In this document: positions 5,978 to 37,919 of the stretch, one piece after another | Layout of the letters: each line of letters starts with the position of its first letter | How positions within the stretch are numbered: position 1 is the stretch's first letter | NCBI GenBank assembly: GCA_038874435.1 | Contig: JAVZCK010000018.1 | Coordinates: forward strand, 1 to 40,105 | DNA from: Thermoplasmata archaeon | Lineage (GTDB): Archaea > Thermoplasmatota > Thermoplasmata > Lutacidiplasmatales > SKW197 | DNA: 40,105 nucleotides | Direction: 5' to 3' | Notes under the pieces: model-generated | Databases searched by the model: none | What the model was told of the DNA's origin: nothing | Seen by the model: only the letters and a program-made list of their open reading frames with translations | Translations under genes and position numbers: made by a program

Positions 5978-6825
5978 AGTTTCCTATCCTCCCATTCAAC
6001 TTTTCTCCTTTCGTATTCTCTTCTACATTCCTCTTCTTTTTCTCGTCTCCAGTTCTCTATCCACTTTCGTATCATGCCTGTTTTCAGAAGCACTACAGTA
6101 CCTACGATAAAAATTGTTAGGGTGCCTATACAACACATAAACCAGGGATTTTGTGGGTTGGGTGTGTACCAAAAATATGATGGTTTTTCAATACTTACTT
6201 CAAGATTGTTTATTTTTCCATTTTCTGCGTCTATAAACACATGAGCCCAATTGGATCCTTCGTTCATGAAGTACGGTGCACCCTCCCATCCTATATACCA
6301 TACCCATCTTAGCTGGCTTTCATTTCTTTCTTCTATTAGATATTCTTTTACAAACAACTGCATAGAAATCTCATAGTCTCCACTGCTTTCAATTCCTTTT
6401 GAACGAAGTGTAGCATTTTCCCTTGCAATCTTATAAGCTTCATCACTATCTATCTTCCATTTTTTAATCTGGATCTCAGTAATATTATAGGAGAGGATAA
6501 ACGAGAACTCTTCGGCTGTAACTTTATTCGTAGATAGGGACACTCTATACGAAAAAAAATTTGACTCACCAATCAGAAACCATGCCTCCCACTCAGATGC
6601 CCTTCCATCAATAGTGCTATCCGCAAATATTGTAATTAGATAAAACGTATTTTCACCCCACTGCTCTTTGATATGACGCTCTATTATTCTATAAGTCTCT
6701 TGAGCGGTAGCCATTCTACTACTATCTTTTGAGAACACTGTAAGAGGTAGTATTAGAATCATTATGCACACAGATACAACTACCAAAATTGTTGCAATTT
6801 TTATATGACGCCTTTTCTTTACCAT
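5974..6825 (-). CDS. Two-TM protein with PepSY-like ectodomain, paralog A4
   Basis: A 283-residue membrane protein, the most divergent of the four. It has a basic N-terminus, a helix (about 10-30), an ectodomain with 'DSDEAYKIARENATL' (about 126-140) and 'HVFIDAENGKINNLEV' (about 194-209) fitting PepSY-like halves, then WYTPNPQNPWF, a C-terminal helix (about 230-250) and a tail rich in Arg/Glu. It sits directly after the full-length MPE (24-base gap, G-rich SD about 11 bases before ATG) and overlaps MPE2 by ATGA. It would be the partner of the full-length enzyme if the pairing is real. Function unknown. Confidence 0.82.
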   Translation of the reverse strand: MVKKRRHIKIATILVVVSVCIMILILPLTVFSKDSSRMATAQETYRIIERHIKEQWGENTFYLITIFADSTIDGRASEWEAWFLIGESNFFSYRVSLSTNKVTAEEFSFILSYNITEIQIKKWKIDSDEAYKIARENATLRSKGIESSGDYEISMQLFVKEYLIEERNESQLRWVWYIGWEGAPYFMNEGSNWAHVFIDAENGKINNLEVSIEKPSYFWYTPNPQNPWFMCCIGTLTIFIVGTVVLLKTGMIRKWIENWRREKEEECRREYERRKVEWEDRKL

Positions 6826-6849: not shown

Positions 6850-9800
6850 TTATTTCATATTTTGTGTGGTTATATAAAGAGGATCCCAAGAGAATGGAAT
6901 CCAGGGTGGAATGCGGGTTTGTCTGCTTAGGTTCATGTTTGAGGGTGTGACAAGGATATCTCCTCCGTAATATCTTATGTGATGTGTATGCCCACTGAAC
7001 ACGGCCTCAACCTTTCCGTTGGCGTTGATGAGATTAATAATATCCTCTCTGTAATTAGTGATACAACCGTGCCCATTTTCATACACAATCGGTGCATGTG
7101 TGAAGATGAAGTAATGGCCTATTTGGCTGTTCTGTGTACCCAATTCCGAATTCAGCCAGTTCCATTGAGAGGAAGTTAGACCTGTAACAGTATAGGAAGA
7201 CAAGTCAAGGCAATACCCTGTGTCTAAGCACAAAAATCGGTAGTTACCATAATCAAAACTATAGTAGTAACCTCCATAGGATAGTGGCCATGTGCCGTCA
7301 AACGCCCATGGGTCTAACCACAATCTATATAAATCAACCCATCGCCTATATGGGCTTCCAGGGACACTCCACGCACCCATGTAATAGTCTAACATCTCAT
7401 GATTTCCTGGTATTGTAAATACAGGGCAGTTTAACATCATAATTGCACCTTTGAATGCTTTCATGGAATTCGTATTATCAGTATCCTGAATTGGAATAAC
7501 CCCAAGAGACAACCCTCCCCAATCTATTAAATCACCTGTTATTACTACGAACTCTGGTTTCTCAAATATATTGATTCTGTTGATAATTGCACACAAGTGA
7601 GCGGTGTGGTAATCCGTGTCACTGCTGCCTGACCACTTGCTCCCAACATGGGTATCTGTTATCTGAATAATTTTGAATATGTTTTTATAGGGGAGTATTC
7701 CTAAACAATGCTTTTGAGTAATTGCTATTAAGCTCCCTCCATGAGTCACCCACACAGTTATATCGTACACCCCTTCCTGTGAACCTATTGGATTACATTG
7801 AATGTGCCAATTCTGATTTACGCTGTCATATGTTGTGCTGACTATGCTTACTGTATAGTGTGCACTACCATCGCTTTTCAATATTTCCACCACTTCAATC
7901 CTGTCCTGACTGAGCACGGATGGAGATAACACAATTTCAAAGTTTGTGTGTAAATTACAATCTACTATTGCAGGTCTTCCAGGTGAAGGGTACAGAATCG
8001 TTGGATTTGCTGGCGGAACTGTAGAAAGGTCTATGGGCCCATACAATTTATTATCTCCAGCTAAGTTCTCCCATCTCTCTATTTCTCCTGTTTCTAAATA
8101 TCTCTCCTCTGTTGTGAACCTACTGTTTACGGTGTCTATCTCAATTACGCGGTAACAAACTTGGCCCGTAATGTGCGAATTTGGTGCACTCCCCAAAAGA
8201 TATTCTATATAGTTAGAAATCCCATCAACATCCTCATCTTCTTTGCTATCCTCTCTCCTCGGATTTAATCCATTTTTCACTTCCCAACCATCTGGCATTT
8301 TATCTTCATCCGTATCCCATTTATCCACATCTGTGCCCACCTTTATTTCCTCCCAGTACCCTAACTCGTCTTCATCTTGGTCCTTACCACAAGACTCAAT
8401 ACTTACACTAATGCTTCCTATACTCCAACTGATATTCTCCCATTCTCCATCTCTTCTTTCTATTCCATTTTCAATTTGCCAGAAATATGTTTTTCCTTCC
8501 TTTCTTCCCCAGTACTTTATTGTTTTCTCGTCCTCTCCATACTTAAATTCAATTTCAAGAGGTAGCGACTCCACACCGTAATCATTCCTAAATGAAAAAA
8601 TCTCTTTTCTCTCTTTATTAACATTATCTATGGAAACTCTTCGGGTGTAATCGCCCACTTTAACAGTGTAGGAAATACCATACTGTGGTCCCCACTTGTA
8701 TTTCATCCTTACCCTAATACATTCATACCCTACAATAGGATTGATATCGTCTTTGTCATCAACATTGTCGTGGTCTGTATCCTTACCCCTGAGATTCTGA
8801 GGAATTCCTGTAAGACCAGGCATTTCTCCCACATTACAGATGAGTGGAGGATGGCCACCACCACCTCCACCACCAACCCCACCAGATGGTTCAAACGGAA
8901 ATGTTCTTGCCTTTTTCTCCATACTATCCAGCCAACCATCTCCATCAGTGTCTGAATTGTGCCAGGAAGAGGTAACATGCTGAGTGTAATATGGCCAATT
9001 AATAGGATTGCCTGGGTCATACTCTATACTCATCGGATACATATAGGTTAGCACATTCCATCCAGCTACTTCTTCCTCATCTGGTAAACCATCTCCATCA
9101 GCATCGTTTATCTTACCAACACTCTCTTTTACCACTGTCTTTCCGTTTATTGTTGCAGACACAGAAAACTTATACTCTACATTTCTTGCTAACCCAACAT
9201 TTTCTGGGATTTCATAACTTTGTATCTCTCCTGCCAATTCCACCTCCGTCTGGTAGATTACATTACTCCCTTCAATAACTCGGATTGCATATTGTATCTT
9301 TCCGACAACCCCAGGCATCTCCCACCACACCCTTACCCCATTCTCATCTCTTGCTGGCTCGTAATAGTCCTCTACCTGCAACACCGTGATTGCTGTTTCC
9401 GTTGTGAAACTGTGTGGCTGTTCTTTGCTACCATAACTAGCTGTGTATGTCTGACCATCTACCACTGTTGTTGCTACGATGTAGTAATCGTAGTCCTCTG
9501 CCGGATTTAGATGGTCCAGCACAACAGTGTGTGTTTTTGTGCTCTCTGCCTTGCTGGAGAGACCCCACCCATAGCCATCCCAATCTGGCTTGTAAATCTT
9601 CCACCAGAGCATTGTGTCTGTATTTATGTTCGTTTTCCAGGTAATGGTTGCACTGTTCTCTGTGGCAACTACATTTACATCATTAATCTGGATTTCTGGT
9701 ATGTTTAGTGGCCCAGAGACCTGCACATCACCTGCCTGAATGTAATACCTGTAATCAGTGTTTTTTGCAAGACCTGTAATTACATTCGTTGAATGACGGA

Positions 9801-12800
9801 TTTTTTGTGTGTAGTAATCCCTCTCATTGTATGTGCCAACTAAATTTCCATTCTGGCGAATTGTTACTGTGTTTTCCGCTGTTGGCACTGTCGTGTCCCA
9901 CTCAAATCTCACTCCGTCTTGCAGAATGTCTACCACCACATTGGTTATGGAGAGAGAAATAATAAAGGTTTTGGAGGCTGTGCCTGAAGTGCCATCTTCT
10001 GCTGTGGCTTTAATTATAATTGTGTACTCCACATTCTGGGAAAGTCCAGAGAGTGAAAGTTCAGTATCCCCAAACAGTAACTTTGTTTCATATTCACAAT
10101 CTGTAGATGTGTATAGCCAGGCATGGATATCCTGGTATGCATGAGCACCCCAGTTAATATAGAATTCCACCGTTGCAGTGCTTATTGAAGTGATTTTCAC
10201 CTGGTAAATCGTTACCTGCGGTCCTTCCATGCTCGCCATAATATCCATATTTGTTTCCTTCATTATGCCAATTGCTGTGACCTCACTGACCCAGATGCCC
10301 TCCGTCTTCGGCCTTATATCTTCTTTCATCTTCTTGACTGCTCCTCTTGTGTTCCCTGCTTCCAGCATGTTCGCAACTGCTTCATACTTATTATCCAGTG
10401 TATTCTTTTGCTGTGTTGCATTTCCGCTGAATGCAGTATCTGGCAATGCCAGAAGTGTCGTCTGAGCAGTTTCCACTTGCTCTGTTGCCTCAGGCACCCT
10501 ATCTGCATACCTCACAATTCCCTCTGCGCTTTTCATAAGCAACCTTGGATTTCCGCTCAAATCCGTGCAGAGACCAATGGAAGTGTAGCCAGCGTATGGT
10601 GTACCATCACTGTAATACCCATAAATCTCGCCTTCATGCACATCTGTCACTTTTTGCCATAATGCCACATTTCTTCCAAAGCTATCATACTTCAAATAGT
10701 TTACATTCCAGTAATAATTCTCATTGCTCAAATAAATCACATGCACATTCTTTCTTGTGTCCAATCCAATCTTTGGCTCTTTCGCATTCCCACATCCAAA
10801 TGTGATTCGTTTCGTGTCCCAATTCTCGCCAGCATCCCTGCTGTATTTCATATAGAGCTGATAAAATCCAGTTTCATTGTCTGCATAAACAACCCAGATT
10901 TGTTTCCCGAAGGTAGCCACATCAAAACCATAGTAAGGACTGCCAGAAAGTGTGGCAATCTCCTTGCTCAGCATCCAGCTCTCAGTTTTCTCATAACACA
11001 GAATCCTGGAGGCCTTCATAAGCATCGTTTTCACACTGCAATATAGATTTCCATCCACAAATTTTGCCTTTCCTACTATTTTCTCATCACCGTAACCTAA
11101 GTTCACCCATGTCGGGTTTCCATCCAGCTCCCATACCCACTTTTTCAGACGAAAGTCATAATGCCACACCTCATTCCATTCATAAACTGCAAAACTATCA
11201 AATGCTGTCAGGAAGAAATGGAAATTCTGGAGCACAGGGCTGGAAACAGGGCTTTCCGAACGCAAAACAAATCTCACGCTGAATTCTGTGGTTTCTGTTG
11301 TGAAATTGTACACCTGCCCTTTTTCTATTCTCGCAAACTCGTTTTCATAACTCACTGTTGTAGAAATTGTGCCAGTGCCATACCAGTGTGGTGTAAATGT
11401 GATTGGAAACACCTGCCCTGCAAAATGATATTCGCAACTCCCTTCCTCATAGTACACATAAATTCTTTCCAGCACGCTCCATTTCACCGCACTCACAGAA
11501 TAAACTGTAAAATTATCAAAATAGCCAGCACCGTATGCATCTGCTGGATTGCCTTCAATGTCTCCAATCCTTATTTTGGCTGTAAGCACCTCTGGCCTGT
11601 AATACATCCCGCAATACACATTATCAAGAAATACATAGAAGTAAGGCACAGAATACACAACCCGGAGGTTATGCCATTGATTCCGCCAGATGTATGTGAT
11701 AAATGAATAGTTGCCTGAACTATCCGCATACATCATGCTCCCGTACTCATCACTCCTCGAATAATTCCTCTCCACACCAATTCCCCAGTCCGCACCTTTC
11801 AACAACCAGAACATCTGGTTATCATAATAAGGCAACATGAAATCAATTGAGAATTCAAATTCTGCAATTCCAACTGGTGGCAAGAAGCTGGGTGATTCTG
11901 CGTAGCCATAGCCAGAGCGATTTGCCCTTGTGTCTATGTGCAATTTGCCTCTGGTGATTTCTACAACATTTGCTTCAGAGACATTCAAATACCAGCCATC
12001 AACACTCTCAAATCCAGTGGAATAAAGCATATTTCCTCGCCTGTAATCAACAATTTTGTAGTAATACACTGCATCCTTTGCACCAAATTCATCTACACCA
12101 CCAAACAAATACACATCCACTCCCTCGCGAATTCTACAGGCACTCAAGCCAAAAACTGGCTCCTCAAGCACTCCCACAATCTTTGGTTCTTCCCATGGAT
12201 AGCTCCAGGGTTGGAAATAGCATTCTATGATTTTATCTGTTATTCCATGTGGAGTCCTCCCACCAAATATGTAGAGCGTGTTTCCAGCCATGTAATAACC
12301 CATATCGGCAACACCAAATGGCAACGCTTTGCTTTCTATGTAACTCATCCCATCATGCATCCAGATTTTGTAAGTTTTGTTTACAAATTGCTCACCTGAA
12401 AGCCCTCCAAAAATGAAGAGGCAATCGCCGTTCATCACAGCACCCATGTGCGAATAATTGGTTGGAATTTCCCAGATTCTTGGTTTTACCTCAATGCTCA
12501 TTGTATCAAATCTGAATCGCCAGAATTGGTCTATGCCACCAGGCAAAATCCAGACCGCATCAAATGGAATTATTGCAGAGCCCTGATGGACTGCTGCAGC
12601 ACCAAATGCCATCGGTTGGGGGAGCTTGAGTGGGAGCATTTCTATTGTGTAGTTTTGAAGCCAGAAACGAACAATTCCATCTGTATAATTCCCGAGTTCG
12701 GTGCAACCACCTGCAATGTAAACCGCATCTCCGTATGCAAAAGCCACATGACCAAAAAAAGGGTACGGGAGAAAGCCAACAACCTCAATTTTCATTGTTG

Positions 12801-13542
12801 ATGTATCAAATCTGTAGATTTCTATTTTACCATGGATGCCATCCTCTGTGCCACCAAAAATGTAAATGGAGTTGCAATAAGCAACAGTTTGGGTATAGTA
12901 AAGTCCAGAGAGTAATGCAAGTGGATGTTTCGCCAGCATAATTCCATCACCACTTACCTCAGCGTTCTCCAGCAAGAACTGATTCTGATTTGGATACACA
13001 GAAAGCTCTGTAAGATTCTGTAAACCAATCCTTGCAGTTGCATAAGCAGTTTCTTCACTCTCAATCCCTGTGCAGTTCACATACACACTTGGATTAATCC
13101 CATAGCCAATGTATGCTGTTTGCCAGGAGTAGGTGGAGGTTTTGCTGTAATAAACATAGGTGGAGTAATTGGCAAGTGTGTAGGCAATGAGATGCCAGCA
13201 ATTGCTTAATCCATAATCCAGCGCAATTACTGGTAAAGGAGAGTTAACTAAAACTATTTTGTTCAAATTCGTTGCACTTGTGAAATTTGCATAGCACAAT
13301 GTGGTGTTATTCTCAACCCAGACCGCATGGTATTTGCTACCATCAGTTTTGATGACAGGCCCAGCTGTAACATTGCCAGAAAGTTGGAATGGCAATGACC
13401 ATGCGACTGCTGGCTCTATGGAGTTCGCACCAGTTGTATTCTCAATGTTCCCGTTTCCTGCCTTTGCACCCTCTGCATTCTCTCCCTGAGGAAGATGAAA
13501 ACACAGCACCAAAACGATTAATATTGCTAACAGTTTCTTCAT
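6850..13542 (-). CDS. Giant secreted kelch/LamG/Fn3 metallophosphoesterase (MPE1)
   Basis: About 2,230 residues from the ATG at 13542. I chose this over an in-frame start 18 codons upstream because the protein then opens directly with the signal peptide (MKKLLAILIVLVLCF) and the ATG lies about 29 bases from a TATA box. Order of domains: kelch-type beta-propeller (about 197-484; six blades ending in GG, such as IYIFGG, VYIAGG, LFIFGG, VYLFGG); concanavalin/LamG-like domain (about 504-680); a second beta-propeller-like stretch (about 700-1010); several Fn3-like domains (about 1110-1460); acidic Ca-binding repeats (DADGDGLPDEEE near 1470 and others near 1720-1760); and a C-terminal phosphoesterase (about 1950-2230) with DTH, GDLID, GNHE, THAP and GHTH. 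No C-terminal membrane helix. First gene of the operon; substrate unknown. Confidence 0.88.
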   Translation of the reverse strand: MKKLLAILIVLVLCFHLPQGENAEGAKAGNGNIENTTGANSIEPAVAWSLPFQLSGNVTAGPVIKTDGSKYHAVWVENNTTLCYANFTSATNLNKIVLVNSPLPVIALDYGLSNCWHLIAYTLANYSTYVYYSKTSTYSWQTAYIGYGINPSVYVNCTGIESEETAYATARIGLQNLTELSVYPNQNQFLLENAEVSGDGIMLAKHPLALLSGLYYTQTVAYCNSIYIFGGTEDGIHGKIEIYRFDTSTMKIEVVGFLPYPFFGHVAFAYGDAVYIAGGCTELGNYTDGIVRFWLQNYTIEMLPLKLPQPMAFGAAAVHQGSAIIPFDAVWILPGGIDQFWRFRFDTMSIEVKPRIWEIPTNYSHMGAVMNGDCLFIFGGLSGEQFVNKTYKIWMHDGMSYIESKALPFGVADMGYYMAGNTLYIFGGRTPHGITDKIIECYFQPWSYPWEEPKIVGVLEEPVFGLSACRIREGVDVYLFGGVDEFGAKDAVYYYKIVDYRRGNMLYSTGFESVDGWYLNVSEANVVEITRGKLHIDTRANRSGYGYAESPSFLPPVGIAEFEFSIDFMLPYYDNQMFWLLKGADWGIGVERNYSRSDEYGSMMYADSSGNYSFITYIWRNQWHNLRVVYSVPYFYVFLDNVYCGMYYRPEVLTAKIRIGDIEGNPADAYGAGYFDNFTVYSVSAVKWSVLERIYVYYEEGSCEYHFAGQVFPITFTPHWYGTGTISTTVSYENEFARIEKGQVYNFTTETTEFSVRFVLRSESPVSSPVLQNFHFFLTAFDSFAVYEWNEVWHYDFRLKKWVWELDGNPTWVNLGYGDEKIVGKAKFVDGNLYCSVKTMLMKASRILCYEKTESWMLSKEIATLSGSPYYGFDVATFGKQIWVVYADNETGFYQLYMKYSRDAGENWDTKRITFGCGNAKEPKIGLDTRKNVHVIYLSNENYYWNVNYLKYDSFGRNVALWQKVTDVHEGEIYGYYSDGTPYAGYTSIGLCTDLSGNPRLLMKSAEGIVRYADRVPEATEQVETAQTTLLALPDTAFSGNATQQKNTLDNKYEAVANMLEAGNTRGAVKKMKEDIRPKTEGIWVSEVTAIGIMKETNMDIMASMEGPQVTIYQVKITSISTATVEFYINWGAHAYQDIHAWLYTSTDCEYETKLLFGDTELSLSGLSQNVEYTIIIKATAEDGTSGTASKTFIISLSITNVVVDILQDGVRFEWDTTVPTAENTVTIRQNGNLVGTYNERDYYTQKIRHSTNVITGLAKNTDYRYYIQAGDVQVSGPLNIPEIQINDVNVVATENSATITWKTNINTDTMLWWKIYKPDWDGYGWGLSSKAESTKTHTVVLDHLNPAEDYDYYIVATTVVDGQTYTASYGSKEQPHSFTTETAITVLQVEDYYEPARDENGVRVWWEMPGVVGKIQYAIRVIEGSNVIYQTEVELAGEIQSYEIPENVGLARNVEYKFSVSATINGKTVVKESVGKINDADGDGLPDEEEVAGWNVLTYMYPMSIEYDPGNPINWPYYTQHVTSSWHNSDTDGDGWLDSMEKKARTFPFEPSGGVGGGGGGGHPPLICNVGEMPGLTGIPQNLRGKDTDHDNVDDKDDINPIVGYECIRVRMKYKWGPQYGISYTVKVGDYTRRVSIDNVNKERKEIFSFRNDYGVESLPLEIEFKYGEDEKTIKYWGRKEGKTYFWQIENGIERRDGEWENISWSIGSISVSIESCGKDQDEDELGYWEEIKVGTDVDKWDTDEDKMPDGWEVKNGLNPRREDSKEDEDVDGISNYIEYLLGSAPNSHITGQVCYRVIEIDTVNSRFTTEERYLETGEIERWENLAGDNKLYGPIDLSTVPPANPTILYPSPGRPAIVDCNLHTNFEIVLSPSVLSQDRIEVVEILKSDGSAHYTVSIVSTTYDSVNQNWHIQCNPIGSQEGVYDITVWVTHGGSLIAITQKHCLGILPYKNIFKIIQITDTHVGSKWSGSSDTDYHTAHLCAIINRINIFEKPEFVVITGDLIDWGGLSLGVIPIQDTDNTNSMKAFKGAIMMLNCPVFTIPGNHEMLDYYMGAWSVPGSPYRRWVDLYRLWLDPWAFDGTWPLSYGGYYYSFDYGNYRFLCLDTGYCLDLSSYTVTGLTSSQWNWLNSELGTQNSQIGHYFIFTHAPIVYENGHGCITNYREDIINLINANGKVEAVFSGHTHHIRYYGGDILVTPSNMNLSRQTRIPPWIPFSWDPLYITTQNMK
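9327..9525. repeat. Direct repeat within Fn3 coding region, copy 2
   Basis: Partner of 5563-5761, lying inside MPE1 and encoding the same Fn3 segment. High DNA identity here, against weak similarity in the adjoining Fn3 and Ca-repeat regions, points to recombination between the two MPE genes. Confidence 0.9.
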
Positions 13543-13560
13543 AATTATAAGTAATGTTTT

Positions 13561-13576
13561 TTTTTTATATATAAAG
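13561..13576 (-). promoter_or_regulatory. TATA-box promoter of the MPE cassette operon
   Basis: The minus strand reads CTTTATATATAAAA, a near-ideal archaeal TATA box centred about 29 bases from the ATG at 13542. That spacing predicts a leaderless transcript, in agreement with the absence of a Shine-Dalgarno before this ATG. It is the only clear promoter I see for the whole 13.5 kb leftward block. Confidence 0.65.
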
Positions 13577-13771
13577 TTTTCGCTTGAGTTTGGCATTTTT
13601 TGTATCTCTTAATGAGTTTGCATGGCTTGTCTCAATCTGATTGTTCATGAAACTGCATCAAAAAATGTTGTAAGCAATTGAAAATCCACTTTTTGGTTCC
13701 CTTGTGTTCATTTGCGAAATCTGTATTTTGCGAGTTCTACCTTAAGTGGGAGTTATAGTCAAGTGCAAAAG

Positions 13772-19330: not shown

Positions 19331-22033
19331 ATGAAGGCACTCAGTTTTGCTCTCGGTCTTCTTATTCTCCTCTCAGGGTTTGCTCAAGCTGTGAGTGTGG
19401 ACAACACTGGCAGTTATTCCTGCAAAATTGTCTGGGATTCAAAGGGTGCTGGAGAGTATAGAATTCTACTCATCGGGAATGAGACAACAGTTTACGATAC
19501 TGTGTTCGCAGACCTGCGTGCTGATGAACTGGCTCTTTATGAAACCTACTTCTTTGAAGTGGAATTTACATGGCAAAATGGCACGAAGGCAAGAGCTGTT
19601 GCGATAAACGGCAGTGCCCATGTCCCAGCTGATGCAAAAACCATTGCCTACAACCTCACAGGGCTTTCACCCACAACAAACTACAGGTTGGAAGTGAGAC
19701 ATGGAAATGATGTTGAAAGCATTGAGTTTACAACACTTGCAGAGGTTGTCCAGCTTCCGAAAAACGACCTGAGTGTTTATGCTGTGCTTGCAGTCGTTGT
19801 TGGTTCTTTTGCACTTCTGATTGGCTGGCTTGCAAAGATGGAAAAGAAAAAGTTGAGAAGTGCCTACATTTACATTGCCCCTGCATTGCTCGGGCTCGTA
19901 CTGTTGACATTTTACCCTGTGCTCTATGGTTTCTTTCTCTCCTTCACCGACTACTCTCTTTCCTATAGCCAGGAATACAATTTCGTTGGACTTGAGAATT
20001 ATCTGAATGTGCTTTTCACCCCTGATTTCTCGCTCGTGCTCACCACCACAATTATATGGACTGTGGGTTGCGTGGCTTTGCATGTTCTGATTGGGATTTT
20101 CCTCGCGGTTCTTTTGAATAGGAAAATAAAAGGAAGAGTGGTTTATCGAGCAATCCTCTTGCTGCCCTGGGCTGTGCCCTCCTACATTTCTGTGCTGACA
20201 TGGCGAAGCATGCTGGAATATGGCGGTGCACTCTCAACACCGTTTAACAGTTTCCTTGGCACAAACATTGACTTTCTCAATTCAATGCCCTGGGCTCTAG
20301 TCGCTGTGATAATGGTGAATGTCTGGCTCGGTTTTTCCTACATGATGATGGTTTTCAGTGGTGCACTGCAAGGAATTCCTGAGGAACTTTACGAGGCAGC
20401 GGATGTGGATGGATTTTCAAGATGGCAAAAATTCCGCTACATTACTTTGCCTTTGCTCAAGCCGGCCATAATTCCCGCTGCATTGCTTGGCTTCATTTGG
20501 ACTTTCAACATGTTCAATGTGATTTACCTGCTCACTGGAGGAGGGCCAGTTGGAAAGGTGGGTGTGAGCGCTGGTTCAACCGACATTCTGATAACTTTTG
20601 TTTATGACCAGGCATTTCTTTATTGGAGGATTGGGTTTGCTGCTGCCTACTCTGTTGTTATCTTCATGATGTTGCTTGCCTTCTCAGTAATCTATCTGCG
20701 TGCTGGAGGCGGTGGAGAAAGCGTTTACTTCACTGCTAGAAAGAACTCGTGGCTTTCCGCAGAAGTTGGAACAAGGATTGTGCTTTACGCAGTGGGTGTA
20801 GTTTATCTAGCCGCATTTCTCGGGATTGCTTTCGCAGGTACAAACTTTGCTGGCATTCATTATCAAAATCTGCTCGGAATTGGTTTTATCTTCTCTGCCC
20901 TGCTGATAGCACTGAAATATAGAGAAGGAATTGCCATTGCCAAGCTCTTTGCGTTATTTGACTTCATTGTGTCGCTAGCAGTAATTGTCTGGTATGCTAC
21001 AGTGAAACCTGCAGAAATTGTGGCTGGAGTAAATTTGATGCTGTTTGCAGATGTTGTTGTGCTTTATCTGACAGGCAAAATCTGGTTTGAAAAGAGTTTT
21101 GGAGCTGCAGAACCGATAGAGCGGATGCTTGCATTACCGAAGAGAGGTTTAACAAAAATCGGGGAGGTAATTGGAAGCATAAGAATAGAGATGGGGATAA
21201 GGAAAAAGAAGCTGGTTGAGGATGCAATAGTGCACTTGATTCTCCTCCTCTTCTCAATTCTTGCACTCCTGCCAGTTGTAGGAATAATCGGGACATCGCT
21301 CTGGCCTGGGAATGTGCGAGTTTCGCTCGCAGTTCCCTCTGCAGTAAGCATGGAGCACTATACCCATGTGCTTTATGAAACCCAATTCTTTATCTGGCTG
21401 AGAAATAGTTTGCTGGTTGCTGGGGGCACAACCATCCTCGGAATTTTACTTGCTACCACTGCTGCATATGCGTTCTCAAGATTCAATTTCAGAGGCAAAA
21501 AAGGGTTTATGCTCTCCTTCCTTGTGGTCCAGATGTTTCCAGGCGTTATCATCCTCATTCCATACTACATTCTGATGCGTCAGCTCGGACTTGCTAACAC
21601 ATTTATTGGGCTGATTCTGGCTTATGCGGTTACTGCCTTGCCTCTCGCTGTCTGGATGATAAAGGGTTTCTTTGATACGATTCCGCCAGACCTTGAAGAG
21701 AGCGCAATGGTGGATGGTTGTGGGAGAGTAAGTGCGTTTTATAGAGTTGTGCTTCCGCTTGCAAAACCGGCAGTTGCAGTTGTGGCTCTATTTTCCTTCC
21801 TTGCTGCCTGGAACGAGTTCGTGCTCGCCTACACCTTCATGAGCGATGAGAGCATGTACACACTCCCTGTAGGCTTAACATCATTCGTTGGTGCTGGTGG
21901 CATGCAGACCACTGCGGACTGGGGCAGTTTTGCTGCAATGTCAGTGCTTGTTGCAATTCCAGTGTGTTTGCTCTTCATCGTGTTCCAGAAGTATCTGGTC
22001 TCTGGCTTAACAAAAGGTGGTGTAAAGGGGTAG
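19331..22033 (+). CDS. Single-chain MalF-MalG fusion permease
   Basis: A 900-residue protein joining both permease subunits of a sugar ABC transporter. Order: signal peptide (1-20), Fn3-like extracytoplasmic domain (about 22-140), helix (about 146-165), MalF-type unit (about 175-460) with an EAA loop EELYEAADVDGFSRW near 350, a linker with about four extra hydrophobic segments (about 475-590), and a MalG-type unit (about 630-900) with its own EAA loop PPDLEESAMVDGCG near 786. Two EAA loops are needed to dock two MalK subunits, so one chain should form the full channel. Normally MalF and MalG are separate. The N-terminal Fn3 domain could contact the binding protein or the anchored glycosidase. 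No internal stop or frameshift is seen. Confidence 0.9.
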   Translation: MKALSFALGLLILLSGFAQAVSVDNTGSYSCKIVWDSKGAGEYRILLIGNETTVYDTVFADLRADELALYETYFFEVEFTWQNGTKARAVAINGSAHVPADAKTIAYNLTGLSPTTNYRLEVRHGNDVESIEFTTLAEVVQLPKNDLSVYAVLAVVVGSFALLIGWLAKMEKKKLRSAYIYIAPALLGLVLLTFYPVLYGFFLSFTDYSLSYSQEYNFVGLENYLNVLFTPDFSLVLTTTIIWTVGCVALHVLIGIFLAVLLNRKIKGRVVYRAILLLPWAVPSYISVLTWRSMLEYGGALSTPFNSFLGTNIDFLNSMPWALVAVIMVNVWLGFSYMMMVFSGALQGIPEELYEAADVDGFSRWQKFRYITLPLLKPAIIPAALLGFIWTFNMFNVIYLLTGGGPVGKVGVSAGSTDILITFVYDQAFLYWRIGFAAAYSVVIFMMLLAFSVIYLRAGGGGESVYFTARKNSWLSAEVGTRIVLYAVGVVYLAAFLGIAFAGTNFAGIHYQNLLGIGFIFSALLIALKYREGIAIAKLFALFDFIVSLAVIVWYATVKPAEIVAGVNLMLFADVVVLYLTGKIWFEKSFGAAEPIERMLALPKRGLTKIGEVIGSIRIEMGIRKKKLVEDAIVHLILLLFSILALLPVVGIIGTSLWPGNVRVSLAVPSAVSMEHYTHVLYETQFFIWLRNSLLVAGGTTILGILLATTAAYAFSRFNFRGKKGFMLSFLVVQMFPGVIILIPYYILMRQLGLANTFIGLILAYAVTALPLAVWMIKGFFDTIPPDLEESAMVDGCGRVSAFYRVVLPLAKPAVAVVALFSFLAAWNEFVLAYTFMSDESMYTLPVGLTSFVGAGGMQTTADWGSFAAMSVLVAIPVCLLFIVFQKYLVSGLTKGGVKG

Positions 22034-30902: not shown

Positions 30903-30980
30903 TTACTCCTGCCCTGGTTTCAGCACGAGCTTGAGCACAAGCCCTTCCTTACTTTTTCCAACTTCCAGTTTTTTTATCAT
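30903..30980 (-). CDS. Candidate 25-residue small protein
   Basis: A short frame, ATG at 30980 to TAA at 30903, encoding MIKKLEVGKSKEGLVLKLVL and five more residues. A textbook Shine-Dalgarno (GGAGGTG) lies about 6 bases upstream, inside the last codons of the large surface protein, and the frame overlaps that gene's 3' end. The peptide is amphipathic and basic. The strong SD is the main support. It could be a translated small protein, the remnant of a longer gene, or chance. Confidence 0.4.
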   Translation of the reverse strand: MIKKLEVGKSKEGLVLKLVLKPGQE

Positions 30981-33900
30981 TTTTTACACCTCCATACTTT
31001 CTTTTCAAAACATTCACAGTCACTAAAACCAGCACTCCGAGCATTGAGTAGTGCCAGGATGTTTCAGGCACAACCGTAGTGTTTGCACTGTCACTGCTTT
31101 CTTGGAACTTTACACCATAGAGCGATGTGTAGTTCAGGAATGCCCAGTTCATGAGTGTGCCTTGCGTAACATTCACACTTACCTGCAAAGTCACATAGTG
31201 GCTCCCAGGAGCGACATTCGTAAAGTGCCATCGCACCACATTTCCATCTAACACACCACCGTCAGAAGCAGAAACAAAATCCACACCATCTGGTAATGTG
31301 TCGTTAATCCAGACATGCCCTGCTATGCCCGTGCCTGTGTTGTTGTAGTAAATTGTGTATGTGAGAATCTCGCCATAACTTGCAACCGTTTTGTCAACAA
31401 CCTTTTCAACCAGAATTATTGGTCTTCTGCAGAGCACCTGTGCACTTGCCTGGCTCGAGGGCATGCTTCTCCGCAGCTGGTCCTTGTAAGTCAGGTTGAC
31501 TATATTCGTGAGGGTAACACCATCGCCAACAGTAGCATTCACCTGCACAGTGATTGTCAGTGCATTCTGGCTATCATGCACTACAGTGCCGAAATACCAT
31601 CTGTAGGTTCTGCCGTCTGTTGAGGTGTATGGAATGCTTGAGGAGACAAAGGCGACACCATCTGGTAATGTATCATTTATCCAGACCTCCTTTGCGTTTC
31701 CATCACCTGTGTTGTTGTAGTAGATTGTGTAGATGATTTGGCTACCTGGCTGTGTCTCGGAAACATCTGCAATCTTGTCAACGGCAATGTATGGTGCCTT
31801 TCTGTCATTGGGTGCGTTTCGTGTGGGAGAGGAAGAGATGTAGAAATCTGAACTTGTGTTTGTGTCAATTGGTCTCCCTGTATCTTCATGCTTGAATCTC
31901 GCCCAGCTCTCTCCACTATCCATACGAGGATAAGTGGTCTCGTCAATTATCTCAGTTGCAGTTCTTCGCAATGTGATAATTGCACCAGTATCTGGCAATT
32001 GGTTTGACAGAGACACAGATAAGTACTCACTTCCAGAGCCAAAGGGTCCTAGTACAGTCCCGGTTGGGAAAGTATAGATTCTCGTAGTGCCACGATAAAT
32101 ATACCAGCCACCTATGTTCACACTGCTATCCGTGGGATTTGCAATTTCAATCCATTCTGGGTTGGGATAGGAAGAGATTTCGTTGATTACAATCAAGGCA
32201 AAAGCACCAATTACAGAGGTATTAGCAAAGGCACTGGAATTTTGAAGTTTATTGCCAGCAGCATCAGTATAGTTCAGGGAGACAGAATTTGTGATGGTGA
32301 TGCCAGTAGGTGCGGTTGTGTTAATCCGCACAGTGATTGTAAGTGCGTTCATACCCACGCTTACATTCTCCAACACCCATTTGTAAGTCCTGCCATCTGT
32401 TGAATTATATGGAATTGAGGAGGTTACGAATGTAACATAGTCGGGCAATGTATCATTTATCCAGACATACTTGGAATTTGCAGAGCCCGTGTTGTTGTAG
32501 TAAACAGTGTAGTTGAGCCAGTCCCCTGGTGAGGCAGTTTCTCTGTCCACAATTTTTCCGACTACAATGTAAGGGGCATTGTATAATATTGCACAAGAAT
32601 AGATACTTTCTGGCATTTTTCTGCCAAGTATGTCAGTGTAATTCACTGACACATTGTTATAAATTGCTGTAGTTGGAGGAATGCTCTCATTGACTCTTGC
32701 TGTAAAAGTAATGCTGTAAGAACCTGGAGCAAGATTTGTGAAATTCCAGTAGTAAGTTTTCCCTGCAATTCCCGATGGAGCAGGAGAAGCAGACACAAAC
32801 TCCAGATAAGGCGAGAGCGTATCATTCACCCATACATTTCTTGCTCTTCCATCACCTGTGTTGTTGTAGTAAATTGTGTAGTTCACATACTCCCCAGGAG
32901 AAAGAATTATCTGCTTGTCTGCAATTTTCACCACATTTATGAGTGGTGCCTTTCTGTCGTTCCAGGTGCCACTTGTGGGAGATGAAGAAATATAAAAGTC
33001 CCAGGTATCAACATCTGTGTCCTCTGGCTTACCGTCATAGGCATTTTTGTATCTTGATAAGGTTGCACCAGAAGGAATGGTAGTAAACTGCACTTCATCA
33101 ATTAAAGTCCCTGTGTTTGTGTACAACCTTACCCCCGTAGCTGTGGCAATGTTAGTTGTGGGTGTAACAACCCTGTACTCGCTTCCAGACCCGAAGGCAC
33201 CTATTATGTTGGTTCCCTGAAAAGTGTATACTGTTCTCCAATTGTTCCCGATGCGGGCCTGCAGATACCAATTTCGCACATCTATCTGGCTTGATGTAGG
33301 ATTTGCTATTTCTATCCAGTTCCCAGATGTGGAAACTTCGTTGATTACGAGATGATTGTCTATCGGCAATGCTCTATCGTTTCTCTGTCTTTGTGTGGGC
33401 GAATCCGAAATGTAGAAGTCATGGGAATCTGTATCAGTATCCACAGGTTTTCCGTTGTATGGCGAATAATACCTTGCCCAGGTCTGCCCAGCACCAAGAT
33501 TTGCAGGATATCTTGTCTGGTCTGTTCGTGTGTTTGTTTGGTCTTGTATCCTTACAGTTCTGGAATTCGAAGGGAATGGATTAGTTGTGAAAGTCACAAC
33601 CAAATATTCATTTCCTGACCCAAAGGCACCGATTATTGTACCAGATGGAAATGTGTATATCACAGTGTTTCCTAGCAGAATATCCCAGCCAGAAATGTCA
33701 ATCGGATTTTCCGTTGGATTCACAATCTCTATCCAGTCATTGCTTCCATAAGTGTAAATTTCATTTATCACAACATCCGTGCCATAGGTGTTGCGAACAC
33801 CAATTCTTTCCCGCATCAAATTTGTAATCAGTGCACTGTCGCTCCAGTCCCCTGCCTTAAACCAGTTCTTTGTCGCGAATCTAATCACGCTCCTGTTTCC

Positions 33901-36492
33901 AATATCTTGCAAAATTCCTCTTGGCAATGCACATTCCATCTCATGGCTACCAATTGCAGCACTAACATTTCCCATGTAGGTCCAGTAGGTCCAGTTCTGT
34001 TCAACAATGTATGTTTCATAATGATAAACCTCGCTCGTGTAAATTGTGTTGTTCTTCCCAGTAACCATTATCATGTATTCGGCACCCATCTCTCCCCTGT
34101 AAACTCTAAACCCGGTTAAGCGATTGCCATCTATGTCTATGAACACGAATAAAGCGTCCATGCCTTCAAGCACAGGGACTTCTGGTGGCGGTGGCGTCAC
34201 AACCTCGCTCGGTCTTTCCACAATCATTGGCAATTCCTCGCCAGCAAGCACAACGCCATAGGTTGAGAGATAGAAGGACACATTCTCCATGTCCACCATT
34301 CCATACTTTGCAATGTCCACACTGGGCCAGACAAATCTGCCAGGCGGGAAAGTGTCATTTTCAGTATCTGTATTAAGCATCACATTTTGCCAGTCAGCAA
34401 ATGCACCATCAATCACAATTTCTTGTGGCACTGTCTCCACATAAGTGTTGCCAATAAAACTGGAATAAAGCGTTGCTGTACCATTTTCCACAAAAACATC
34501 GCTCCGGCTTGGAATTCTCAATCCCACAGATTTCCCAATCGCACTTGAATTCAACCTCGCATAAATACCAATTTCCATCTCACTGTTTTTCTCAAGCGGC
34601 ATTGAAACATTAAAGCGGAACATCCCGTCTGTGTAATTTCCAGCAACTACATTATTTCCAGCCCTTAACTCAATTCCATCAAAATCAGTTGCACTGGCAT
34701 TCCCTGCAATGCTCACATTGATTTGCCTGATCCAGTTCTCCTTTGCCTTTGTCTCAACACTAAGGCGGAGCAATTCTACATTCTGGCTATGATTAACAAT
34801 GCCATGTTCAGGATTGCTTTGTGTGATAACAATTGCGCCCGGATGTGTGGAAACCACGGCCTGGCCCCTGCTTCTGTTCCCGTAGTTATCCTGTGCGTAA
34901 AACACAATCCTTGGTATTGAAGCTGGCTGTGTGAGCGTGAACTGTCCCTCAAATCGTTGTCCATCAACAGCTCCTTTGCCACTGTATTTGCTTTCAAACC
35001 CGTTAAAATCTGTCTGATTCCTGCTCGAGTTCCATTGATAGGCAGAGGCACTTTTTACTGCACAATCCCAGCCAGAAAACACAGCCATGTAGTCAGCCCC
35101 TATGCCAGAAATTGCATAGCCTGTGCTTGCGTTATCATCTGCATCCACAAACATGAAGAAGGCATCAGTTTCGTTGAATGCTTTACCCAGCATCGCAGCA
35201 TCTCTCACCTCCACATAGAAGGAGAGATAGTTTCTGTAGAGATGCACACCGTATTTACCAATCTCCACACTTGGATTCTGTAAGCTATAGACAGGGTTTT
35301 CATAGATTGTCGTGCCTTCCCAATCCTCAAATTTGCCATCTATTGTGATGCCTGGATAAATCACGAACATACTGTAGATAAGCAAGGGCAGTAGAAAGAA
35401 CATGAAGAACACAATAACAACAGTCCAGGTTTTTTTAACACTTTCGGGAACTCCCTTTTTCTTTTTTGGTTTTCCAATGTCGTATTTAAGGCCAGCACCG
35501 TTGATGAGTCCTTCTCTATGGGCCATCACAAACCCGTTGATGAGACCGTTAACTTTGCCGTAAGTCGCACCTCTTCCTGTGGCAACCCCATTTATCAAGC
35601 CGTTAATCTTCCCTGGCTTGTAATGCAGGGTACGGCCATTTATCAATCCCTGAACCGACTTCCCATTTGTTTTCCCATTAATTCTTCCGTTGATTTTACC
35701 ATTAATCCTTCCATTGATTTTCCCATTGGTTATTCCATTCTCACTTCTAGCTCCCTCTGCAAAAGGCGATTTTGAAACAATTCCCTTGGGTGTGTGAACG
35801 ACTTTTGCCTCTTTGCTCTTCTCGATTGCATGAATCGTGCTCAGCACAGCCTCAGCCTTCTCCGTCTCTCCCATCTGACGAAGAATTTCTGCTTTGGTTT
35901 TCAGTAAGTCAGGATTTCTTGGTTGTTTTGCGAGCAACGCATCGTATCTCTCAAGCAATTCCCTGAGCACATCTCGCTTTTTCTTTCCACTTTCCCTCTC
36001 TGCGATAATCTCCAGAATCCTGCGTTTGTAAACTTCCCCCTCTTTCGCAAGGGCTGCGGCCTTCTCGAAGCACACACAGGCCTCTGAGTAGCGAGAAAGC
36101 TTTGCAAGAATCTCTCCCTTTATCTCCCAGGCCTTTGGGAGTTCTGGCTGAATTCTCGTGAGTTCATCATAGTATCTGTAGGCCTCCTCCAACTCCTTTA
36201 CCTCTTTAGTTTCAAAAACCTCTTTATCACTTTCACTCACCCTTTTCCAGCGTTCCTTTATGTCCTTACCTAACTTTCCGTTTCCGTTTCCATTTCTTTC
36301 TCTCAATTTTTCCAGATTTGACTTTATCTTCTCAGCGCACTTTATCCCAATACCATTAATTTCAGCAAGTTCCTCCTTGCTGATTTTACTAAGGGCATCG
36401 TAGGTGCAGAGCCCTCGCTCCACCAGGATTTCGGCCCTTGCAATAGAAATCTCGAGAAGTTGAGCGAGTTCCTCTGCAGTGTAGGTATTCAT
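30949..36492 (-). CDS. Giant membrane-spanning HhH/TPR - NG-repeat - lamin-tail/DUF11 protein
   Basis: About 1,847 residues from the ATG at 36492 (leaderless spacing from a TATA box). Cytoplasmic part: helix-hairpin-helix domain (about 1-65, with EINGIGIKCAEKI) and TPR-like helices (about 80-220). Next come an NG-repeat linker (about 250-335) and a membrane helix (about 355-380). The extracellular part has two modules opening ITIDGKFEDWE and IVIDGAFADWQ (CBM9/DOMON-like), three lamin-tail-type domains (VINEIYTYGSNDWIEIVNP and two relatives), and four DUF11-type repeats (YTIYYNNTG...VWINDTLPD). The end, VVPETSWHYSMLGVLVLVTVN then KRK, looks like a C-terminal membrane or sorting signal. Many Asn-x-Ser/Thr sites suggest glycosylation. 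Likely adhesin or S-layer-associated; function unproven. Confidence 0.88.
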   Translation of the reverse strand: MNTYTAEELAQLLEISIARAEILVERGLCTYDALSKISKEELAEINGIGIKCAEKIKSNLEKLRERNGNGNGKLGKDIKERWKRVSESDKEVFETKEVKELEEAYRYYDELTRIQPELPKAWEIKGEILAKLSRYSEACVCFEKAAALAKEGEVYKRRILEIIAERESGKKKRDVLRELLERYDALLAKQPRNPDLLKTKAEILRQMGETEKAEAVLSTIHAIEKSKEAKVVHTPKGIVSKSPFAEGARSENGITNGKINGRINGKINGRINGKTNGKSVQGLINGRTLHYKPGKINGLINGVATGRGATYGKVNGLINGFVMAHREGLINGAGLKYDIGKPKKKKGVPESVKKTWTVVIVFFMFFLLPLLIYSMFVIYPGITIDGKFEDWEGTTIYENPVYSLQNPSVEIGKYGVHLYRNYLSFYVEVRDAAMLGKAFNETDAFFMFVDADDNASTGYAISGIGADYMAVFSGWDCAVKSASAYQWNSSRNQTDFNGFESKYSGKGAVDGQRFEGQFTLTQPASIPRIVFYAQDNYGNRSRGQAVVSTHPGAIVITQSNPEHGIVNHSQNVELLRLSVETKAKENWIRQINVSIAGNASATDFDGIELRAGNNVVAGNYTDGMFRFNVSMPLEKNSEMEIGIYARLNSSAIGKSVGLRIPSRSDVFVENGTATLYSSFIGNTYVETVPQEIVIDGAFADWQNVMLNTDTENDTFPPGRFVWPSVDIAKYGMVDMENVSFYLSTYGVVLAGEELPMIVERPSEVVTPPPPEVPVLEGMDALFVFIDIDGNRLTGFRVYRGEMGAEYMIMVTGKNNTIYTSEVYHYETYIVEQNWTYWTYMGNVSAAIGSHEMECALPRGILQDIGNRSVIRFATKNWFKAGDWSDSALITNLMRERIGVRNTYGTDVVINEIYTYGSNDWIEIVNPTENPIDISGWDILLGNTVIYTFPSGTIIGAFGSGNEYLVVTFTTNPFPSNSRTVRIQDQTNTRTDQTRYPANLGAGQTWARYYSPYNGKPVDTDTDSHDFYISDSPTQRQRNDRALPIDNHLVINEVSTSGNWIEIANPTSSQIDVRNWYLQARIGNNWRTVYTFQGTNIIGAFGSGSEYRVVTPTTNIATATGVRLYTNTGTLIDEVQFTTIPSGATLSRYKNAYDGKPEDTDVDTWDFYISSSPTSGTWNDRKAPLINVVKIADKQIILSPGEYVNYTIYYNNTGDGRARNVWVNDTLSPYLEFVSASPAPSGIAGKTYYWNFTNLAPGSYSITFTARVNESIPPTTAIYNNVSVNYTDILGRKMPESIYSCAILYNAPYIVVGKIVDRETASPGDWLNYTVYYNNTGSANSKYVWINDTLPDYVTFVTSSIPYNSTDGRTYKWVLENVSVGMNALTITVRINTTAPTGITITNSVSLNYTDAAGNKLQNSSAFANTSVIGAFALIVINEISSYPNPEWIEIANPTDSSVNIGGWYIYRGTTRIYTFPTGTVLGPFGSGSEYLSVSLSNQLPDTGAIITLRRTATEIIDETTYPRMDSGESWARFKHEDTGRPIDTNTSSDFYISSSPTRNAPNDRKAPYIAVDKIADVSETQPGSQIIYTIYYNNTGDGNAKEVWINDTLPDGVAFVSSSIPYTSTDGRTYRWYFGTVVHDSQNALTITVQVNATVGDGVTLTNIVNLTYKDQLRRSMPSSQASAQVLCRRPIILVEKVVDKTVASYGEILTYTIYYNNTGTGIAGHVWINDTLPDGVDFVSASDGGVLDGNVVRWHFTNVAPGSHYVTLQVSVNVTQGTLMNWAFLNYTSLYGVKFQESSDSANTTVVPETSWHYSMLGVLVLVTVNVLKRKYGGVKNDKKTGSWKK
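35491..35740 (-). repeat. In-frame Asn-Gly (ING) repeat tract
   Basis: Coding repeat giving ITNG-KING-RING-KING-RING-KTNG and then more widely spaced GLING units, just before the membrane helix of the giant protein. The dense part (35650-35740) consists of imperfect 12-base units in DNA, so it can expand or contract by slippage. NG tracts of this kind occur in Thermoplasmata-type proteins; their role is not known to me. Confidence 0.85.
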
Positions 36493-36512
36493 CACTATAG
36501 AAATAGATAGGT

Positions 36513-36593: not shown

Positions 36594-37919
36594 TTACGCC
36601 TGGAAATTCTTCATCTGCTTCTCAAGCTGTTTTCGCATCTTCCTGTCACTCATAATTCCCTTCGCTGCTCGTTTCGACATTTCATAATATTTCAGCAATT
36701 CTCGGACATCCTTGGTATCCACACCTGCACCCCTGGCAATTCTCAAAATTCTTGAACCCTTTATTAGATGCGGATTTTCCAGTTCCTCGTCTGTCATTGA
36801 GTCCATAATTACTTTGAATTTTTTCAATCTTGCCTGGGTTTCCTCAATTTGTTTGTTATCCAAATTCCCTCCTATCGGCAGAAACGACATGAGTTTTTGC
36901 AGGGGACCAATATTTGTCAGGTTCTCCATCTGCTCATACATATCTTTCAGTGTAAATTTACCAGCAATCATTTTTTTTGCCTGCTCTTCCATTTTTTCCT
37001 CGCTTCCACTCTCCTTTATCTTTTCCAGCAGGGTCTGAAGGTCTCCCATGCCTAGCAACCTGGAGATGAATCTCGTGGGCTCAAAATCCTCCAAATCTTC
37101 AATGTGTTCACCCACACCAATGCACACAATTGGTGCCTGCGTCTCAGCCACAGCGCTCAGTGCACCACCTCCTTTCGCAGATCCGTCAAGCTTTGTGATG
37201 ACTACGCCAGTAATTCCAACGGCCTCGTGAAACGCCTTTGCTTGGGGGCCAGCCTGCTGTCCGATAGTTGCATCAATCACCAGAAAAATTTCATCTGGCT
37301 TTGCAACAGCTGCGACCCTTTTTATCTCCTCAATCAAGTCATTTTCGAGCGAATGTCGCCCAGAAGTGTCTATGATTTTCACCTCATAGTTCTGCATTTT
37401 TGCAAGTCCCTCTCTCACAATTTTCGGAGCTTTCGTCTCACCTTTCTCACCATAAAATCCTGCATTTGTTGCCTCTGCAAGTTGCTGGAGCTGGTCATGA
37501 GCAGCAGGTCTATGCACATCCCCGGCAATCAGTGCCACATTCAGCCCGTGCTTCTGGAAATATTTAGCAAGTTTTCCACAGGTCGTGGTTTTGCCCTGTC
37601 CATAAAGGCCAACCATCATTATTGTCTGGCTTTTGAGTGGAATTTTCTTGGCATTGCCTAAAATTTTTACGAGTTCCTCATAAATTATTTTAATCACATG
37701 CTCTCGTGGGTTCACACCTTCTGCTGGCTTCTCTTCAAGGGCTCTCTTCTCCACTGCCTTTGTGAGCTTGAGCACTAGCTTAACATTCACATCTGCCTGA
37801 AGGAGGGCACGCTGGATGTCCTTGACAATTTCCTTGATGAGTTCAGGGCTAATCTCTCTCGCCATTCCAACTTTTTTCAGAACTTCACGCAATGAGCTTC
37901 CAAGATTGTCCAATACCAT
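36594..37919 (-). CDS. srp54: Signal recognition particle protein SRP54
   Basis: 441 residues, typical length. N domain (about 1-95), then the GTPase G domain with [15 protein letters not shown] (about 106-120; Gln replaces the more usual second Gly/Ser of the P-loop, which is seen in some archaeal SRP54), [36 protein letters not shown], and [12 protein letters not shown]. The M domain (about 300-441) contains [11 protein letters not shown] and ends in a Met/Lys-rich helix. It binds signal peptides and SRP RNA and targets nascent exported proteins to FtsY and the Sec channel. TATA-like GCTTAAAT at 37941-37950 is about 27 bases from the ATG, so the mRNA is probably leaderless. Confidence 0.97.

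Follow-up and report, generated by a model that had tools for sequence, protein, structure and literature searches.

A putative double-anchored surface protein with an NG-rich juxtamembrane repeat, from a head-swapped family of a Thermoplasmata archaeon

In most archaea, surface proteins are regarded as purely external. Among described systems, secreted surface proteins with DUF11 (TIGR01451) and Lamin Tail Domain (LTD) modules resemble the protein analysed here, whose ectodomain carries the same domains above the curated cut-offs. The models for these domains, however, cover pieces of the ectodomain only, and the protein adds a cytoplasmic head and an NG tract before a signal-anchor. With archaeosortase/PEF-CTERM substrates it shares a VPE motif, a hydrophobic segment and a basic C-terminal tail, but no CTERM model matched its C terminus and the candidate enzyme falls under the cut-off for ArtC. 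The HHH_5 domains of eL32, RadA, NusA and UvrC are similar to the N-terminal part of the head in their helical double-hairpin layout, the second hairpin being NGIG; the head differs from them by a first hairpin without GxG, a membrane-anchored context and the lack of hairpin conservation in its orthologues. A protein of DHVE2 and Aciduliprofundum genomes (loci L218-L229) combines an orthologous helix-hairpin-helix (HhH)-like/TPR head with an NG tract, a transmembrane segment (TM) and two domains of the VDGxFxDW type (DW domains), but its HhH hairpin is degenerate, its NG tract is shorter and spaced, and its distal ectodomain is unlike. No published description of the NG motif or of the head-TM-DW family was found in the literature searched, which comprised sources outside subscription.

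The window, a stretch of 40,105 bp, constitutes the entire contig C18; the archaeal genome to which it belongs measures 2.16 Mb and has one congener in the collection. The gene (30949..36492, minus strand; its features given below all lie on this strand) encodes 1847 amino acids and starts with ATG at 36492 or GTG at 36495. From the N terminus the protein consists of HhH, TPR, an ING repeat, a basic stretch, a TM, a sequon-rich ectodomain with two DW, three LTD and four DUF11 domains, and a C-terminal anchor. The initial annotation had described a single gene joining the head to an adhesin, and the reading frame, which has no internal stop, agrees with this. The order head-NG-TM-ectodomain recurs in the congener, where it was traced up to the contig end about 15 amino acids beyond the TM, and without interruption in the DHVE2 orthologues, so the head does not belong to a gene of its own. 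Separate genes or a frameshift were ruled out by the unbroken frame and the orthologues, and a misassembly of the head onto a repeated ectodomain by the same junction in the congener and in DHVE2 and by a difference of 3% between the copies. An SRP54 gene (36594..37919, minus strand) lies about 100 bp upstream and adjoins the gene in the congener too. It was looked for near the DHVE2 orthologues and not found; this neighbourhood was set aside as a functional clue because the linkage is not conserved there.

The first TM (residues 360-378, 35359..35415) was located by hydropathy and follows a basic stretch (KPKKKKGVPESVKK, 35431..35472). The net charge flanking it is +3 on the head side versus -3 on the ectodomain side. 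For 76 members of the family, net charge averaged +4.2 in the 15 residues leading up to the TM and -1.1 in those after it, and the N-in charge rule is satisfied in all members but one (75/76). Sequons (N-x-S/T) are absent from the head of the window protein (1.7 expected) and number 44 in its ectodomain (19.6 expected); in the 76 members together, 1184 were counted outside versus 842 expected, and 45 inside versus 80 expected. Charge and sequon statistics thus support a predicted topology with the head inside and the ectodomain outside. The earlier placement of the HhH/TPR head in the cytoplasm and of the LTD/DUF11 part outside the cell is retained, and an external position of the HhH part is at odds with the same statistics. 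The initial annotation had overlooked the C-terminal anchor, in which a VPE motif and a hydrophobic segment (31006..31059) are followed by a basic tail, a layout also present in the orthologues. Together with the first TM, this anchor would bring both ends of the ectodomain to the membrane. The genome also encodes an exosortase/archaeosortase-family protein (L261, C11:58739-59437) with a TIGR04178 match of 37 bits (cut-off 23) and a further match to archaeosortase C below the cut-off. This candidate enzyme may process the VPE/VSE C-termini of the head-TM-DW family.

Also missed at first were the two DW domains. The first (residues 379-570, 34783..35358) served as profile A1; the second (residues about 690-890, 33823..34425) was recognized by a profile match at 33910-34422 (E 3e-28). 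Sequence searches of PDB and Pfam with the DW domain found nothing. An AF2 model of the DW region from 11 sequences was all-beta with a pLDDT of 66, indicating moderate confidence, and its Foldseek matches, to glucodextranase, sialidases and antibodies, had TM-scores too low to name a family. The remainder of the ectodomain (31051..33780) matched DUF11 (PF01345) in four stretches with 163.5 bits (cut-off 24.6, E 3e-48), TIGR01451 with 145 bits (cut-off 24) and the Lamin Tail Domain (PF00932) in three stretches with 114.3 bits (cut-off 34.3, E 5e-33).

Proteins in which a basic N-in TM is immediately followed by a VDGxFxDW domain were grouped as a family, and the window protein qualifies. Profile A1 matched about 30 genes of its own genome; the congener has about 24. 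Nearly all of them read head-TM-VDGxFxDW, and in many an NG linker lies ahead of the TM. The heads in the own genome are diverse. HhH heads were found on contigs C1, C2, C4, C5 (twice) and C13, a RecA/KaiC-like head with zinc ribbons on C6 and KaiC-like heads on C9 and, once, on C16; the RecA/KaiC labels are our own reading of the sequences, and Pfam returned for the C9 head DUF7504 only, below threshold. Other members have a coiled-coil head (C10), zinc ribbons (C8, C1 and C9), a TPR head (C7) or bare tails of about 50 residues (C1, C2, C4, C8, C20 and C29). The distal ectodomains comprise LTD, DUF11, FG-GAP, right-handed beta helix and DUF2341 domains. Judged by its sequence, the window protein is one of about 30 head-swapped members and not an odd fusion.

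Beyond the genus, the window-type HhH-like/TPR head was detected in seven genomes of a sample of 390 (family f5, E <=1e-54), and a scan of named genomes yielded twelve contigs with this head, mostly from DHVE2 or Aciduliprofundum. Family f5 was equated with the DHVE2 family because one named contig and an f5 locus have the same sequence in this region. The window protein and its orthologues share a DFLKRWG...AYEEY...SPVxWxxKGE block, the NG tract, the TM and a VDGNFxEW motif. In further families of the phylum, too, the G-x-[T/I/V]-N-G linker motif lies ahead of the TM. In f2, a sister family of the same order, a profile search for DW domains gave none, and NG matches in f2 were discarded as NGSGNG/NGNG low-complexity stretches that differ from the window motif.

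Comparison with the paralogue on C6, which has a different head, revealed a block of 1552 bp with 97.2% DNA identity (33807..35358) and a second one of 841 bp with 92.2% (31062..31902). The identity begins no more than a few codons beyond the TM, on its outer side, and no DNA similarity was found between the two heads. For the corresponding gene pair of the congener, 72 bp were available for comparison and show 100% identity, and the contigs break inside both ectodomains, as expected of a near-identical repeat. Between the species, in contrast, the ectodomains show only about 80% DNA identity and the orthologous heads 72-75%. Paralogous ectodomains at 97% and 100% versus about 80% between species indicate concerted evolution of the ectodomains but not of the heads. 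The ectodomain of the window protein is evidently homogenised by gene conversion with that of the C6 paralogue, giving two different insides the same outside.

The NG tract spans residues 252-334 (35491..35739) with the motif G-x-[TIV]-N-G. It opens with an array of ING units of 12 bp (residues 252-279, 35656..35739; seven NG units), detected as a tandem repeat at 35660-35739 with 6.7 copies and an even stronger 24-bp period. The suggestion that this tract of 12-base units may vary in length was confirmed by seven NG units in register in the window gene versus five in the congener. The codons within the units show synonymous differences, which suggests selection on the peptide and not merely fresh slippage. 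All ten genes of the own genome with a true NGxxNGxxNG tract place it before a TM and a DW domain; the remaining pattern matches were one glycine-rich external linker and one secreted peptidase. In the 76 members, the density of G-x-[TIV]-N-G was 18-fold higher in the cytoplasmic parts (19.9 per 1000 amino acids) than in the ectodomains (1.1). The genus and distant families show the same consensus, with G at -3 in 66-67% and T, I or V at -1 in 62-71% of the NGs. A strict spaced NG pattern matched none of the controls and occurred in 11 of the 243 genomes from the phylum. Ten of these 11 belong to the 17 genomes with DW domains (Fisher 1e-12; the genomes are related and the counts not independent). 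All arrays whose flanks are long enough lie ahead of a TM and, if the sequence continues to that point, of a DW domain. The sole sampled genome with a strict array and no DW match at 1e-6 was G192 (C26:25652, L237). About a quarter of the distant members and nearly half of the genus members have at most one NG close to the TM, which indicates that the family does not depend on the array; the DW families f17 and f27 lack it.

The head itself comprises an HhH-like helical domain (residues 7-61, 36310..36474) and TPR-like helices (residues 98-222, 35827..36201). The former matched HHH_5 (PF14520) with E 9e-6 and 26.5 bits, 0.5 bit under the cut-off of 27, while paralogues scored above it (45.8 and 41.7 bits); its sole intact GxG hairpin is INGIGIKCAEKI. 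Several TPR families matched residues 98-222 with E<1e-4 (best TPR_9, E 9e-7), every one under its own cut-off, and profile matches to TPR structures were obtained as well. In an AF2 model of the head from 14 sequences, the TPR region had pLDDT values mostly between 75 and 89 and the HhH domain was helical at low confidence. Foldseek retrieved TPR proteins only.

These results make it reasonably probable that the protein is a double-anchored modular surface glycoprotein, with the head as a protein-interaction module and the NG array as a shared, selected membrane-proximal element. The ectodomain would contribute to a shared surface assembly or to adhesion, several proteins presenting one outside, and the head would tie it to a cytoplasmic partner. 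The array, linked to the TM and not to a particular head, would be a repeated element serving either as a multivalent motif for docking to, or clustering with, something common to the family or as a selected flexible spacer. A bolder extension, which we consider improbable, has the array dock multivalently onto a cytoplasmic scaffold, as yet undescribed, that would organise dozens of head-swapped surface proteins as a cortex-like layer beneath the membrane of Thermoplasmatota-type archaea, with gene conversion keeping the ectodomains the same on different heads. The family extends through the phylum, its folded cytoplasmic domains swapped, its outside constant and the inner membrane face marked by a conserved peptide repeat. 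Its phylum relatives suggest that the repeat may have a job nobody has described, and a partner, if it has one, would offer a handle on the coupling of surface layer and cytoplasm in archaea.

Sequence alone cannot decide between docking, spacing and targeting as the role of the array. That the tract is a mere flexible spacer of drifting length has a substantial chance, somewhat short of even: the NG period varies (4, 6 or irregular residues), its length differs between congeners and some members have no tract. The composition of ordinary linkers drifts, however, whereas here a specific pentapeptide consensus is maintained across distant families despite synonymous codon change. A targeting or insertion signal ahead of the signal-anchor, like an extended signal peptide, would suit those paralogues whose entire cytoplasmic tail before the TM amounts to about 50 amino acids, made up of the NG tract and basic residues, and SRP54 neighbours the gene in the genus. 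This reading is very doubtful given that NG tracts also lie 250-500 residues into large-head proteins and that the SRP54 linkage is missing in DHVE2.

Two further explanations concern the head. One outside on varied insides, including RecA/KaiC-like and zinc-ribbon heads, could also befit receptors whose DW ectodomain binds a ligand, perhaps a carbohydrate, and whose interchangeable heads pass on the signal; among beta-sandwich proteins, Foldseek gave a weak match to glucodextranase. Its TM-score was low (0.17) and mixed with antibody folds, the window protein has no kinase, HAMP or output domain, and anchoring at two ends with many LTD/DUF11 repeats fits a structural role, so receptors appear fairly improbable. 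The bridge to the nucleoid proposed initially, in which the HhH head would bind DNA and tie the surface to the chromosome, draws on the HHH_5 match and on the HhH heads of six paralogues, several with both hairpins canonical as in eL32, RadA and DNA-repair HhH domains. Conserved GxG hairpins and a basic surface, as in DNA-binding HhH domains, were not found: one of two hairpins is intact, the DHVE2 orthologues have lost it while retaining TPR and NG tract, and the net charge of the domain is -2, compared with paralogue values of 0 to +2. RNA or protein can be bound by HhH domains as well, and many family heads contain no such domain. With the low AF2 confidence, these points leave DNA binding by the window HhH unlikely, and the tether is not supported and is highly unlikely as an explanation of the protein.

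Other genes showed related patterns of sharing. In the own genome, L189 (C1:172k) and L190 (C7:56k), with heads of about 550 amino acids, possess an identical NG-linker/TM segment (FTNGLKKSVTAREAYTNGLGKRKPGYVNGLKKPGMRQRPAKVSRVKQ), a candidate for recombination. Two secreted giant calcineurin-like phosphoesterases of the window (2999-5977 and 6850-13596, minus strand) have a near-identical internal stretch (LDHLNPAEDYDYYIVATTVVDGQTYTASYGSKEQPHSFTTETAITVLQVEDYYEPARDENGVRV) in common, which may be another sign of recombination among surface genes. Four related membrane proteins (127-891, 1095-1967, 2155-2994 and 5974-6825, minus strand) share a C-terminal part of the type Y.W.TP ... FPLIL, and the C-terminal ends of two of them are nearly identical. 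On the plus strand, MalF-like and MalG-like maltose-type ABC permeases are apparently fused in a single reading frame of 900 amino acids (19331-22033).
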